From an uncultured Caryophanales bacterium (GTDB taxonomy: Bacteria > Bacillota_I > Bacilli_A > Acholeplasmatales > Anaeroplasmataceae), in the NCBI GenBank assembly GCA_946405105.1, contig CAMJFY010000011.1, positions 1 to 51,546 of the forward strand: DNA of 51,546 bases, given 5' to 3'. A model generated the notes under the pieces. That model had not been told where the DNA came from, searched no databases, and was given only the letters and a program-made list of their open reading frames with translations. Position 1 is the stretch's first letter. Each line of letters opens with the position of its first letter. The position numbers and the translations under genes were made by a program. Shown one piece after another: positions 18,330 to 24,991 of this stretch.

Positions 18330-19412
18330 TTAATCCTCACAAAATAAATTTTTATATTTCTCTACATATTCTTCTTTTGTAGTGTTTGTAAAAGTTATAT
18401 GAGCCATCTTTCTCTTTTCTCTTACCTCTGATTTGAAATAATCATGAATATGAACATTCTCATTATTCTTTAGTTTCTTCATATTCTCATAATCAAATCC
18501 TAGAATGTTTTTCATTACTGTAGGAGAAATAAGTTTTGGTTCCTCAAGCTCGATTTCTAATAAGAATCTTGCTAATTCTTTATATTGGTTTGTTGTACAA
18601 CCCTCAATAGTGTAGTGTCCACTGTTGTGTGGTCTAGGTGCCATTTCATTGAAATAATATTTATCACCCTTAACAAAAATCTCTATACATAGGATTCCAT
18701 AATATCCTACGCTTTCCATAAACTTTTTAGCATCCTCTTTGATATCCTCAAATACCTTCAATTGCTTATCAACGAATACCTCATCTAGGATACCATTTTT
18801 ATGTTTATTAATTCCCATTGGGAAAGTAATAGTTTTATCTTTACTTCTAACTAGAATTACTGATGTTTCAAAATCATAATTGATGAATTCTTCAAGAATA
18901 CCTTCACCTTCAAGGAAAGGCTTAACCTTTTCAATGTCATCTAAAGACTTAATAACAACCTGTCCATGACCATCATATCCTAAAGTTGTTGTCTTATATA
19001 CACAAGGGATTCCAATTTCTTTAATTCCATCGTTTAAATCCTTTAGGGAATTAATTGCTTTAAACTTTGGAGTTTTTAATCCATGCTTCTTTGCATTTTC
19101 CTTTTCTCTGATTCTGTTTTGTGAATCAAATAATGGTTGAATACCTTGAGGGATATTATATGTATCTAATAAAAATTTCAATTGAGCTGATGGTACATTT
19201 TCAAATTCATATGTGATAACATCAGTCATATCGCCTAGTTTCTTTAACCCTTCAATATCATCGTATTTTGCAACAACGATATCATCGCACACAAAGCTTG
19301 CTGAGCATTTAGGATTAGGATCTAAGCAAACAGCCTTAGCACCTAGCTTATGAATTTCTTCTGCCAGCATCATACCAAGCTGGCCACCACCAATAATTCC
19401 AATAGTTTTCAT
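18330..19412 (-). CDS. purK: 5-(carboxyamino)imidazole ribonucleotide synthase
   Basis: PurK carboxylates AIR to N5-CAIR using ATP and bicarbonate; PurE then rearranges it. The protein (about 360 residues) starts TIGIIGGGQLGMMLAEE and is an ATP-grasp enzyme, with VYKTTTLGYDGHGQVVI near residue 145, EEFINYDFETSVI, and FNEMAPRPHNSGHYTIEGC near 260. The ATG at 19412 has AAAGAGG 5 nt upstream; the longer frame from a TTG at 19430 would start inside the terminator tail. purK is first in the operon and directly behind the attenuator. Purine operons more often have purE beside purK; here purE lies upstream in a separate unit. Confidence 0.96.
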   Translation of the reverse strand: MKTIGIIGGGQLGMMLAEEIHKLGAKAVCLDPNPKCSASFVCDDIVVAKYDDIEGLKKLGDMTDVITYEFENVPSAQLKFLLDTYNIPQGIQPLFDSQNRIREKENAKKHGLKTPKFKAINSLKDLNDGIKEIGIPCVYKTTTLGYDGHGQVVIKSLDDIEKVKPFLEGEGILEEFINYDFETSVILVRSKDKTITFPMGINKHKNGILDEVFVDKQLKVFEDIKEDAKKFMESVGYYGILCIEIFVKGDKYYFNEMAPRPHNSGHYTIEGCTTNQYKELARFLLEIELEEPKLISPTVMKNILGFDYENMKKLKNNENVHIHDYFKSEVREKRKMAHITFTNTTKEEYVEKYKNLFCED

Positions 19413-19626
19413 AATAACCTCTTTAAACAAAAAAGAGCAGCATTAAACAATGCTACTTTAATCGCACTAAAAACATCCATTTATTAAAAATGGTCTGTTA
19501 ATAATATTAACTTGCATCATATGCTTCATCATAAATGTGAACCTCGATCCAAGTAGAGTAGTAATTCTTAATATCTTACCTCCATTTTAATATTTATAAT
19601 ATTAAAAGGGACTATTAAAAACTACA
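19413..19626 (-). promoter_or_regulatory. Structured leader of the purine operon (candidate riboswitch or attenuator, class unknown)
   Basis: About 210 nt separate the predicted start site from the purK ATG. In RNA order there is a perfect 10-bp stem with a 3-nt loop (19607-19585), then GGAGG (19583-19579), then a relatively GC-rich core, then an intrinsic terminator. CUACUUG at 19556-19550 has two competing partners: CAAGU at 19514-19510 closes a 35-nt loop, while AAGUAG at 19458-19453 overlaps the 5' arm of the terminator. That is the arrangement of a switch between terminated and antiterminated states. I do not recognise purine, PRPP, guanidine, ZTP, T-box or THF consensus sequences. A purine-related signal is inferred only from the operon. 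Confidence 0.55.
19429..19457 (-). terminator. Intrinsic terminator in the purK leader (attenuator)
   Basis: On the minus strand AGTAGCATT pairs with AATGCTGCT across a 4-nt loop (9 bp, one G-U), followed by C and six T. The T-run ends about 16 nt before the purK ATG. No gene ends just upstream that needs terminating, so it acts on the purine operon's own leader transcript. Confidence 0.8.
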
Positions 19627-19632
19627 TTCTAT

Positions 19633-19661
19633 ATTGTATCATAAAAGAGTTGACTAGTAAA
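19633..19661 (-). promoter_or_regulatory. Promoter of the purine operon
   Basis: On the minus strand -35 TTTACT (19656-19661), 17 nt, then -10 TACAAT (19633-19638). It is the only good promoter seen ahead of purK and probably drives about 14 kb through to guaA. Confidence 0.65.
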
Positions 19662-19692: not shown

Positions 19693-19723
19693 TAATAAAA
19701 AATACGGAGCCTAAGTCCGTATT
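19693..19723 (-). terminator. Terminator of the 218-residue lipoprotein gene
   Basis: AATACGGA and TCCGTATT form an 8-bp stem with a 7-nt loop, followed on the minus strand by TTTTTTATTAA. It overlaps the stop codon and isolates the gene from the purine operon promoter. Confidence 0.85.
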
Positions 19724-20378
19724 AATTATTTAGCATATTTATTACTTCTTCTGAGAATTGAATATTTTGATCCTCATAGCTATAATCGATTGTTACTTTA
19801 CTATAGCTATTACTATTATCAACATATACAAACATTGTATATGATGAAAGCTTTTTATCCTCGAATTTAAAATACATATCATAAGTAAATGAATAATCTT
19901 GATTTTCTTTATATTTTTTTAGCACATATTCATTAGATATTGAATTAAAAGTGACATTATCATAAATATCTTCCATTTTAATATAGCTAGTTGCCACTGG
20001 CATGATTTCTGAAATATCGAAATTTCCTAATTGACTATAAGAATTATTTGCATACTTTACTGTATTGTAAATACCATCATTAATGACTGAATAATAATCT
20101 TCATTTATGGAAGACATTATAGCTCTAGTAGATAATGTTATTTTATCATTATCTCTTGTCAACTCTATAGATCGGGAAACAATAGAACTCCTACCAGAAT
20201 ATAAATTATAAAGACATTTATATTCTGTTCCTAAATTTTCCATATTTTTAAATTCTTCTTCTGATACCTGATATTTAGCATCATCTAATGTGTAATCTTC
20301 TTTCTTACTAGTATTACTACATGAAGCAGTTGTGATAACAAAAGTAGATAACAATAAAATTCCTAATGCTTTTTTCAT
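19722..20378 (-). CDS. Lipoprotein of unknown function
   Basis: The 218-residue protein has a lipoprotein signal: MKKA, a hydrophobic stretch, then the lipobox TASC with Cys at residue 20, and a Ser/Lys-rich tether. The mature part is polar, beta-rich and Tyr/Asn/Ser-rich, with repeated 'YSYEDQN'-like segments, and I recognise no domain. It resembles the many small LolA/LppX-like lipoproteins of Bacillota only in broad character. It is monocistronic, with its own promoter and terminator, inserted between purE and purK. A TAGGAG site precedes the ATG. Confidence 0.75.
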   Translation of the reverse strand: MKKALGILLLSTFVITTASCSNTSKKEDYTLDDAKYQVSEEEFKNMENLGTEYKCLYNLYSGRSSIVSRSIELTRDNDKITLSTRAIMSSINEDYYSVINDGIYNTVKYANNSYSQLGNFDISEIMPVATSYIKMEDIYDNVTFNSISNEYVLKKYKENQDYSFTYDMYFKFEDKKLSSYTMFVYVDNSNSYSKVTIDYSYEDQNIQFSEEVINMLNN

Positions 20379-20497: not shown

Positions 20498-20968
20498 TTA
20501 TAATTCAATATTTAATACAGTTTCTGTTTGATTTTTTCTAAAATCTTTTAGCTTTTTAGCTAATTCTTTATCATTTGTAGCTAAAATACTTACAGCAGAT
20601 AAGCCTGCATTTTTAGCTCCATTAATAGCTACTGTTAAAACAGGAACTCCTCCTGGCATTTGAACAATTGATAATAATGAATCTAAGCCATTTAAAGCTC
20701 TTGATTTTACAGGAACACCAATAACAGGAAGGGTAGTCATGGCAGCAACCATACCTGGTAAGTGAGCAGCCCCACCAGCACCAGCGATGATAACCTTTAT
20801 TCCTCTTTCCTCTGCACTATGAGCATATTCATACATTAAATCAGGTGTTCTATGTGCAGATACTACTTTCTTTTCATATTCTACGCCAAACTCATCTAAT
20901 ACCTTGCATGCATCTTGCATTACTTCATAATCAGAGTTTGAGCCCATGATTATTCCTACTCTTATCAT
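20498..20968 (-). CDS. purE: N5-carboxyaminoimidazole ribonucleotide mutase
   Basis: PurE (class I) rearranges N5-CAIR, the PurK product, to CAIR. The 156-residue protein has [16 protein letters not shown] near residues 5-20, the catalytic SAHRTPDLM near 40-48, and [26 protein letters not shown] near 62-87. It begins 2 nt after the stop of the P-loop kinase-like gene, with a GAGAG ribosome site in the end of that gene, so it is co-transcribed with it and fhs. It is separated from purK by the lipoprotein gene and two sets of terminators. Confidence 0.96.
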
Positions 20969-22716: not shown

Positions 22717-24381
22717 TTAAAATAATCCAACGATTTTACCATCTATGATATCCATCTTCTCAGCTGCAGGCTCCTTTGGAAGTCCAGGCATTGTCATTAT
22801 GTCACCTGTTAAAGCAACAATAAATCCAGCTCCGATTGATGGTTTTAATTCTCTTATTGTTAAAGTAAATCCTTCTGGTCTTCCTAATAGCTTAGGATTA
22901 TCAGATAATGAATATTGGGTCTTAGCCATACAAATTGGTAGGTTATCCCAACCATTACGTTTCATTTGCTTCATTTGAGTTTTTGCTAAACTTGAGAATT
23001 CTACTGCGCCAGCGCCATAGATTTCCTTAGCGATTGTAGTAATCTTATCCTTGATTGAATCATTTTCATCATAGATACACTTAAATGTTTTACTACCATC
23101 ATTTTTATCAATTTGATCAATAACCTTCTTAGCTAAATCAATACCACCATTTCCACCATCAGTGAATACTTCTGATAATGAAACTGTATGGCCATTCTTC
23201 TTAGCCCAGTTCTCTAATGCATCAATTTCATTCTTTGTATCTGTATAGAATTTATTGATTGCAACAACATAAGGAAGATTATATTTCTTTATATTTTCAA
23301 TATGCTTTTCTAAATTAACTATTCCTGATAATAATGCATCAACATTTTCTTCCTTAAGGTCTTCCTTTAAAACACCACCATGCATCTTTAATGCACGAAT
23401 AGTTGCAACAATTACAACGCATGAAGGCTTAATACCTGTTTGTCTACATTTAATATCTAAGAATTTTTCAGCGCCTAAATCAGCACCAAAGCCTGCCTCA
23501 GTAACGACATAATCAGCTAGCTTCATTGCTAGCTTAGTTGCGATAACTGAATTACAGCCATGTGCGATATTTGCGAAAGGTCCACCGTGAATTAATGCTG
23601 GATTATGCTCTAACGTCTGAACTAGGTTAGGCTTTAGGGCATCCTTCATAATTAATGCAACAGCTCCTGTAGCATTTAGGTCATCAACAGTAACTGGCTT
23701 TTTATCATATGTATAAGCAACAATCATTCTAGCGATTCTCTTCTTGAAATCCTCTAAAGATGTTGATAAACATAATACAGCCATTACCTCAGATGCAACC
23801 GTGATATCAAAATGATCCTCACGAGGAACACCATTTGAGCTTCCACCAAGACCTACAATAACACTTCTTAATGCACGATCATTCATATCTAAACATCTGT
23901 GCCAAATGATTCTTGTAGGATCAATACCAAGCTTGTTACCTTGGTGAATGTGATTATCTATCATTGATGCGATTGCGTTATTTGCTGTTGTGATTGCATG
24001 TAGGTCACCTGTAAAGTGAAGATTGATATCCTCCATAGGAATAACCTGTGCATATCCTCCACCAGCTGCACCACCTTTAACACCCATAACAGGTCCAAAT
24101 GATGGTTCACGTAATGCAACAATAGTCTTATAGTTAAGCTTATTTAATGCATCAGAAAGACCAATAGTTGTAGTTGATTTTCCTTCACCAGCAGGTGTTG
24201 GCGAAATAGCAGTAACTAAAATTACTTTTCCGTCCTCTTTTGCTTTGATACAATTTGGATCAACCTTTGCTTTATATTTTCCATAAAATTCCAAATCATC
24301 TTCATTAATATTCAATTTTTTTGCAATTTCTTTAATTGGCTTAATATCAGCTTGTTGAGCTATTTCTAAATCAGTTAGCAT
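22717..24381 (-). CDS. fhs: Formate-tetrahydrofolate ligase
   Basis: Fhs makes 10-formyl-THF from formate, THF and ATP and supplies PurN and PurH. The protein of about 554 residues has the P-loop [14 protein letters not shown] near 57-70, [22 protein letters not shown] near 86-107, and [19 protein letters not shown]. The C-terminal segment [32 protein letters not shown] is intact. I chose ATG 24381 because AGAAAGG lies upstream and homologues begin near TDLEIAQ; the longer frame to 24453 adds a hydrophobic stretch of no known role. It heads the fhs-kinase-purE unit. Formate is a common product of anaerobic pyruvate metabolism, which fits a fermenter. Confidence 0.96.
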
Positions 24382-24443
24382 ATCTTTTTCCTTTCTGATT
24401 TGCTTTCGTAAGAAAAACAAATGTTTTTTCACGATATACAACA

Positions 24444-24472
24444 ATAATATCATAAATAATATATTATTTAAA
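24444..24472 (-). promoter_or_regulatory. Probable promoter of the fhs-kinase-purE operon
   Basis: On the minus strand -35 TTTAAA (24467-24472), 17 nt, then -10 TATTAT (24444-24449), between the pyrR stop and the fhs ATG. The region is so AT-rich that other hexamers are possible. No folate riboswitch features are seen in the roughly 60-nt leader. Confidence 0.4.
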
Positions 24473-24493: not shown

Positions 24494-24991
24494 TTACTTA
24501 ATAATTATCTGTTTTTCGTTAAAATCACAAATTACTTTTTCGTCTTTACTAGTAGGAATAGATTTACCTACAAAGTCTGCTCTAATAGGTAATTCTCTAT
24601 GTCCTCTATCTACTAAAACTGCTAGCTCTATCTTAGCAGGACGTCCCATATCAATAATGGCATCCATAGCTGCTCTAACAGTTCTACCAGTATATAAAAC
24701 ATCATCAACTAAAATGATAATTTTATCATCTACATTGTTTGAAAATATTGATTTGTTAGTTATATTCTTCTTCTCATCATCTCTATGAGATGAAATATCG
24801 ATTAGTTCTACTGGAACAGATACACCCTCGAATTGTTCAATTAGCTTAGCAATCTCTCTAGCTATTGGTGTTCCCTTTCTTTCGATACCAACTAATATTA
24901 ATCTTGTTAAATCCTCATTTCTTTCAATGATTTCATGAGTCATTCTTTTTAAGGTTCTAACAAATTGATCAGGTTCAATAATTATCTTCAT
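24494..24991 (-). CDS. pyrR: PyrR: pyr operon RNA-binding attenuator / uracil phosphoribosyltransferase
   Basis: The 165-residue protein matches PyrR. The PRPP motif [21 protein letters not shown] is near residues 90-110, with the preceding [15 protein letters not shown] and the following [27 protein letters not shown]. In Bacillus PyrR binds leader RNAs of pyrimidine genes in response to UMP/UTP and has weak uracil phosphoribosyltransferase activity. No pyr genes are present here, so targets are elsewhere. GGTGAT precedes the ATG. Only 47 nt separate it from yebC, most taken up by a terminator-like hairpin. Confidence 0.92.

Follow-up and report, generated by a model that had tools for sequence, protein, structure and literature searches.

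A candidate translation-gated attenuator, in place of a riboswitch, in the purine operon leader of an uncultured Anaeroplasmataceae bacterium

The leader of a purine operon from an uncultured bacterium of the Anaeroplasmataceae is likely a ribosome-dependent, i.e., translation-gated, transcription attenuator, one which in relatives would be set by a guanine riboswitch. A new metabolite sensor is improbable here; the leader instead holds a tiny gene whose translation seems to determine if transcription goes on, a module which in several relatives stands under a known guanine sensor. The leader does show conservation, though not of an aptamer. By 'the window' we mean here the whole stretch of DNA analysed, 51,546 nucleotides in length. 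Conservation, reading frame, possible pairings, positions, and the presence or absence of riboswitches are all read directly from nucleotides. Features of the window's leader are as follows, with SD standing for Shine-Dalgarno.

19633..19661, minus strand: promoter-like site, TTTACT-17 nt-TACAAT with TG before the second hexamer (consensus scan)
About 19626 (predicted transcript start) to purK, minus strand: leader of about 210 nt, ending in a strong terminator
19558..19625, minus strand: 5' hairpin, with a 13-bp outer and an inner 10-bp stem (fold -16.2 kcal/mol, z -3.2)
19546..19554, minus strand: 5' arm of the SD hairpin, ACUUGGAUC (pairing and covariation tests)
19542..19545, minus strand: SD of the small ORF, GAGG (motif reading)
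19467..19532, minus strand: small leader ORF of 21 codons, MMKHMMQVNIINRPFLINGCF and then a stop (24 of the 33 leaders read have such an SD-led ORF)
19510..19518, minus strand: SD hairpin, 3' arm, GAUGCAAGU, which falls within the small ORF (pairing and covariation tests)
19477..19493, minus strand: second hairpin, CCAUUU-UUAAU-AAAUGG, within the small ORF, then a T-rich tract and a Y-G step (fold, covariation)
19429..19457, minus strand: intrinsic terminator, stem (19457-19436) plus T run (terminator scan, fold)
18330..19412, minus strand: purK, first gene of the operon, with its ATG at 19412 (NCBIfam)

The operon runs purK-purL-purC-purM-purN-purH-purD-folD-purB-guaA, all on the minus strand and reaching down to 5720, as named with NCBIfam. 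The purK protein is over the cut-off of one such model, purL is by this naming an FGAM synthase, and the folD-like protein is over cut-off for only some of its models. Between purE (20498-20968) and purK there sits in the window a lipoprotein-like gene (19722-20378), unlike in three relatives (G033, G034, G040) in which purE directly abuts purK. Upstream of purE are found both a formate-tetrahydrofolate ligase (22717-24453) and PyrR (24494-24991), which is a pyrimidine attenuator protein. Control of the operon by PurR was considered as well and was rejected, as none of the family's 55 genomes has PurR_N (PF09182), an absence which we count in favor of attenuation.

A leader of this length, ending in a strong terminator before purK, had been proposed in a first-pass annotation of this DNA and was borne out: The terminator folds at -10.1 kcal/mol (z -4.1), terminator-like sites number 3 in the region versus 0.2 in shuffles, and the leader as a whole folds better than 200 of 200 shuffles (z -4.7). 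That annotation's 'good' promoter is seen as a promoter-like site, and relatives have similar sites at the corresponding place, as judged by eye, but such sites are not commoner in the region than in shuffles (7 vs 5.3). So too the 10-bp stem said to precede a GGAGG exists, within the 13-bp stem, though no start codon follows that GGAGG. A stretch relatively rich in G+C (19515-19562) had been read as conserved RNA. At 37.5%, versus 26.2% for the leader, it is matched by 54% of shuffled leaders, that is, a 48-nt stretch this rich is expected by chance, and we therefore do not use it as evidence. That annotation had recognised no known riboswitch class, and the searches agree: Across Rfam 15 (T-box, ZTP, PRPP, THF, guanidine, etc.), nothing in the window exceeded its gathering score, and the leader searched at E up to 10 gave seven below-cut-off matches only (E 0.98-8, the best being 0.98).

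What that annotation did not describe is the small ORF. Its context was sought among relatives, which by purK protein are metagenome-assembled genomes (MAGs) named Acholeplasmatales, Erysipelotrichaceae, or Anaeroplasma, plus Anaeroplasma bactoclasticum; viral contigs gave no purK relatives. Within the family, purK is present in 36 of 55 genomes. Thirty purK leaders were read. The window's genus supplied 19 of them, two further genera gave one apiece of the same kind, and nine differ, with those of G027, G028, G032, G036, G038, and G050 lying outside of these thirty. Of the nine, six have a plain riboswitch plus terminator without a small ORF (G029, G035, G039, G042, G046, G048) and three are those with purK abutting purE, all nine being set aside prior to counting of small ORFs. 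In the remaining purK leaders an SD-led small ORF is found in 21 of 21, and also in three purL leaders of the window's genus which had been located via their riboswitches. This core is shared, that is, by 24 of the 33 purK or purL leaders read, which supports attenuation; that the six plain leaders, all of genus g4, do without the ORF is a point against. One MAG (G010) has in addition a second purK leader (L135, 1533-1605), itself complete with small ORF, second hairpin, and terminator. This is either a duplication or a mixed bin, and it is counted in none of our tallies.

Twelve leaders were used to build a covariance model, for which the 55 family genomes yielded 31 matches at E<=0.1, spread over 26 of them. 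Consistent with attenuation, 24 of these 31 are at purK or purL leaders, 12 of them by construction; G012, at 18 bits, scores less helpfully for that reading. The seven others fall outside of purine leaders at E 0.015-0.09, and at those values have been taken for chance rather than as the module recurring elsewhere, with six inspected and the seventh lacking a locus. As the sequences are related, none of the leader counts given here are independent.

For the small ORF, with translation that we infer, the reading frame is borne out by sequence. With the longest SD-led ORF chosen in each leader, stops in frame number 1 in 432 codons versus 54 and 87 in frames 1 and 2, a difference favoring the attenuator. 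Variability is greatest at third codon positions, also in the attenuator's favor (mean entropies by codon position of 0.63, 0.91, and 1.09 over 20 N-terminal blocks, G047, G044, G010, and G012 being omitted and two leaders shifted by two codons). Its end, too, is placed with respect to the terminator. In 14 of 23 leaders no more than 3 nt separate the stop from the terminator arm's first G or C, versus 2.9% of random ORFs, and in 22 of 23 it is within -15 to +12 nt of that arm, versus 10%, with limits in both cases set after the data were seen. (The 23 are the 24 less G019, which has no terminator under the rule used.) Other-frame stops near the arm, at 0 of 46, are a weak control, many first stops being the TGA of ATGA. 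In the window, the stop comes 10 nt before the arm, which fits attenuation less well. The one leader of 23 lying outside of the -15 to +12 range is that of G047 (L067), in which, as in G050 (L098), the ORF continues past the terminator and into the start of purK. At the level of sequence, in short, one feature of an attenuator is seen, a leader ORF which has an SD and whose end is at, or close to, an intrinsic terminator.

Over the start of this ORF there can close an SD hairpin, ACUUGnAUC:GAUnCAAGU, encompassing both SD and start codon. The first-pass annotation had noted a pairing of CUACUUG with CAAGU, and this gains support across leaders: Tested without alignment, ACUUG against the ORF region gives a Fisher value of 1.6e-4 over 22 leaders, with relatedness ignored. 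Singly, p<=0.05 is reached in only 6 of the 22, the window itself being at 0.13, which does not help the attenuator. In 22 model-aligned leaders, both hairpins taken together have 91.7% of cells paired versus at most 41% in slid controls, and double-sided changes occupy 19 cells versus 4.4 in shuffles (0 of 500), over 8 of 14 pairs. Both results favor attenuation, though with an alignment which was fitted to the structure and for which 12 rows trained the model; in an unfitted alignment of 12 rows (A2) covariation is weak. Also counting against are G010 and G012, which are missing the ACUUG arm, and G022, in which that arm has no clear partner.

The same annotation had the CUACUU segment pairing alternatively with AAGUAG of the terminator's 5' arm. 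Six base pairs indeed are possible in the window (p 0.04), but this pairing is not conserved: For the ACUUG segment against the terminator side, the only antiterminator pairing sought, the combined Fisher p over 22 leaders is 0.86, and this form of the switch was rejected. The more general idea of competing structures stands in part, as something attenuator-like that is conserved with covariation, and falls with respect to the terminator arm. So it is as well with the comparative alignment of leaders that had been suggested, which does yield a covarying core common to 24 of 33, albeit with the conserved portion consisting of small ORF, its ribosome-binding-site hairpin, a second, pause-like hairpin, and terminator; a novel riboswitch, as had been proposed, is left unsupported.

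That second hairpin is late in the ORF (consensus CCAUUN:NAAUGG) and is missing from G012, which is outside of the 23 leaders considered here. In 7 of 22 leaders it is found in a frame other than that of the majority, suggesting that it has been kept as RNA. A Y-G step follows. Its pyrimidine is at 10-13 after the hairpin in 21 of the 23, compared with a mean of 6.6 and a maximum of 13 for shuffles, and TTNTTT starts no more than 3 nt past the hairpin in 16 of 23 (shuffled mean 3.1, maximum 10). At least five of the six letters are present in 21 of 23, the window having 5 of 6, a mismatch which counts against the attenuator there. Hairpin plus T-rich tract is pause-like, that is, it resembles an RNA-polymerase pause signal. 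The host's NusG has VRNTP aligning with N81-T82 of the best-matching chain, 8ehq_G, by our own count of residues, while chain 2jvv_A has SV; the former chain we take to be from B. subtilis and the latter from E. coli. In B. subtilis, NusG-dependent pauses are reported to have TTNTTT at -11 to -6, which is read by N81 and T82 of NusG (PMC12288461). Should the leader's pause fall at the pyrimidine of the Y-G step, then its TTNTTT would be one off from this register.

The only ligand sensor that we find among relatives is the purine riboswitch, RF00167, seen in 29 of 55 family genomes and in 4 of 14 of the relatives' loci (63-75 bits). None is found in the window's genome (34 contigs, 91% complete, Infernal's stricter filters), with the window's 5' hairpin instead occupying the place at which relatives carry the riboswitch. 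The ligand is presumably guanine, going by the C in GACUA. Nineteen loci with both riboswitch and small ORF were picked, before purK, purL, purE, guaB-like, and fhs-like genes, and all except the fhs-like locus (G032) were analysed for pairing. In all 18, to the advantage of the attenuator, a strand of the riboswitch core can form a 7-11 bp duplex with the linker (single p 0.000-0.10; <=0.05 in 15 and above 0.05 in three). Of ten ACUUG-type leaders tested, the best core duplex takes in CUU (3) or CUUG (6) of the ACUUG arm in nine, with p 0.000-0.078, i.e., <=0.05 in 6 and above 0.05 in four, again in the attenuator's favor. As that duplex covers part of the ACUUG arm, it would exclude the SD hairpin. 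Less favorably, ACUUG:CAAGU is the strongest linker:ORF-region helix in only 2 of the 10 ACUUG-type riboswitch loci. The switch appears to be displayed most plainly in G028, in which the linker CUUACCUC can pair with riboswitch core or, by 8 bp, with GAGGUAAG at the ORF's SD, the latter pairing also supporting attenuation.

Riboswitches are distributed otherwise, too. A purine riboswitch with small ORF and terminator precedes a guaB-like gene in L109 (G030) and an fhs-like gene in L094 (G032), both names having been given by eye from protein starts, and riboswitch plus plain terminator precedes, in L103 (G024) and L096 (G025), a lipoprotein gene that by eye resembles a nucleoside-transport binding protein. 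In the order, outside of the family, no small-ORF module was seen by eye among the 19 riboswitch loci listed, with one of these (L157) having no long ORF nearby.

The window's leader, in which no riboswitch is found, may be viewed in other ways. One view is of a relic, with the guanine riboswitch gone and small ORF plus terminator merely fixing a level of expression, sensing nothing. The absence of a riboswitch from the window's genome agrees with this, as does the absence of any competitor for the SD hairpin in the 11 of 13 riboswitch-less leaders tested (p 0.19-0.91), the latter also weighing against attenuation. Against a relic, the small ORF is present in 13 of 13 riboswitch-less purK leaders. 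On the purK tree these 13 are found in several places, the riboswitch label changing three times, with at least two changes forced by well-supported branches, so that loss or gain of the aptamer must have occurred repeatedly, with the ORF retained throughout. The hairpins and stop position also are kept in most riboswitch-less leaders, exceptions being G010 and G012 as to the ACUUG arm and G012 as to the second hairpin. We judge a relic to be unlikely. Rather less likely still, indeed very improbable, is that the 5' hairpin (19558-19625) is a novel aptamer controlling the terminator. The 5' parts of riboswitch-less leaders do fold better than shuffles (p<0.03) in 10 of 11, and a closing stem is predicted, from partly different letters, in G000, G005, and G024. 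These 5' parts nonetheless display no sequence common to different lineages, as viewed by eye, no Rfam match, and no pairing with the ACUUG segment beyond chance, and the leader as a new aptamer was rejected for lack of just such common sequence and competitor pairing.

Alternatively the nascent leader peptide could itself sense a purine-related molecule, thereby stalling its ribosome. In its favor, all 20 of the genus's N-terminal blocks have V8, with N9 found in 18 and Q7 in 15, and third codon positions are the most variable. Against this, peptides look unrelated by eye in the purE and guaB riboswitch-ORF loci of other genera, and PL..NG follows the second hairpin, which shifts frame as noted. 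Codon 5 is Met in 10 of 20 blocks, as is codon 6 in 10 of 20, these being the codons at the hairpin arm GAUG. No regulatory codon run nor known arrest motif was found by eye in the 24 peptides, and in the window's no one codon runs longer than two. An arrest peptide we consider to have a very slim chance. A slimmer one yet is given to translational coupling, i.e., that the small ORF hands its ribosomes to purK, with termination secondary. The ORFs of G047 and G050, running into purK as described, are what this would predict, but 17 of the 21 purK leaders have 45-56 nt between the ORF's end and purK, with the terminator and a separate SD (by eye) lying there.

As a translation-gated attenuator, the leader would operate as follows, with read-through, pausing, and direction of control being what we infer from sequence. 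RNA polymerase would begin near 19626. Were the SD hairpin to close first, then no ribosome would follow and transcription would stop at the terminator. Were a ribosome instead to reach the vicinity of the small ORF's stop, it would cover the terminator's 5' arm, blocking the terminator and allowing the operon to be read. The late-ORF hairpin and T-rich tract probably pause the polymerase, letting the ribosome catch up. In relatives, and without guanine, the riboswitch's core strand would pair with the linker (CUU or CUUG of ACUUG), freeing the ORF start, while guanine would release ACUUG into the SD hairpin, shutting the module. In the window's lineage no such aptamer is found, and the downstream module is retained.

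A leader without its aptamer conceivably could sense GTP by way of the polymerase, a suggestion for which we hold only slight expectations. Here the second hairpin, then 10-13 nt, then a pyrimidine, and then G would be a GTP-sensitive pause. With low GTP the longer pause would give a ribosome time to load on the small ORF ahead of closure of the SD hairpin, keeping the operon on. If true, then the riboswitch would have been replaced by substrate sensing with downstream machinery unchanged, yielding a purine counterpart of the pyrBI attenuator, which senses UTP.

Enteric bacteria have, at trp, his, and pyrBI, attenuators in which polymerase pausing gives the leader ribosome time to catch up and to decide over the terminator. 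The purK leader differs from these in that neither a run of regulatory codons nor a conserved antiterminator pairing was found. Among Erysipelotrichales, the attenuators described in one paper are of his rather than purine genes (PMC9413887). A further counterpart is tlrB (yxjB) of B. subtilis, in which the terminator is reported to be hindered by a ribosome that has come close to the stop of the leader ORF, NusG-dependent pausing affording the time to translate that leader (PMC6851288). Both are precedents favoring a purK attenuator, the short leader ORF being shared and, as predicted for purK, also ribosome near stop versus terminator and pausing at hairpin plus T-rich tract. In tlrB an unstalled ribosome is released at the stop, termination then no longer being prevented (PMC6851288), which is a difficulty, as no stall signal is evident in the window's leader. 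The tlrB signal is a macrolide stalling the ribosome, whereas the purK leader has no evident arrest motif and, in relatives, a leader ORF that seems to be opened or closed to ribosomes by the riboswitch.

A plain guanine riboswitch plus terminator, as in the g4 purK leaders (L069-L071, L073-L075), shares the operon position and has a core strand that can pair with a downstream, GAGAC-like segment. The module's riboswitch differs in facing the start of a small ORF rather than a terminator, and the window has no aptamer at all. The Mycobacterium tuberculosis ppe2 B12 riboswitch likewise is reported to act via a small upstream ORF, controlling its translation, which is needed for the downstream gene (PMC11260477). 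Its relay is mainly termination-reinitiation of translation, versus the intrinsic transcription termination proposed for purK (PMC11260477). Ribosome-mediated attenuation with NusG pausing is already known, then, from tlrB (PMC6851288), and ppe2 is a known case of a riboswitch which works by way of a small ORF (PMC11260477). Searches of open papers brought up no guanine riboswitch that reaches a terminator by way of a leader ORF.

If the attenuator reading is right, then a metabolite riboswitch governs termination indirectly, via translation of a small ORF. The ribosome would be part of the switch, which would explain how aptamers may be lost while control at the terminator stays. Plain riboswitch, riboswitch plus ORF, and ORF alone would make up a natural series, one serving as a testbed for the evolution of expression platforms. 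For Anaeroplasma-like bacteria, with PurR found in none of the 55 genomes, there would be in this module a plausible means of purine control.
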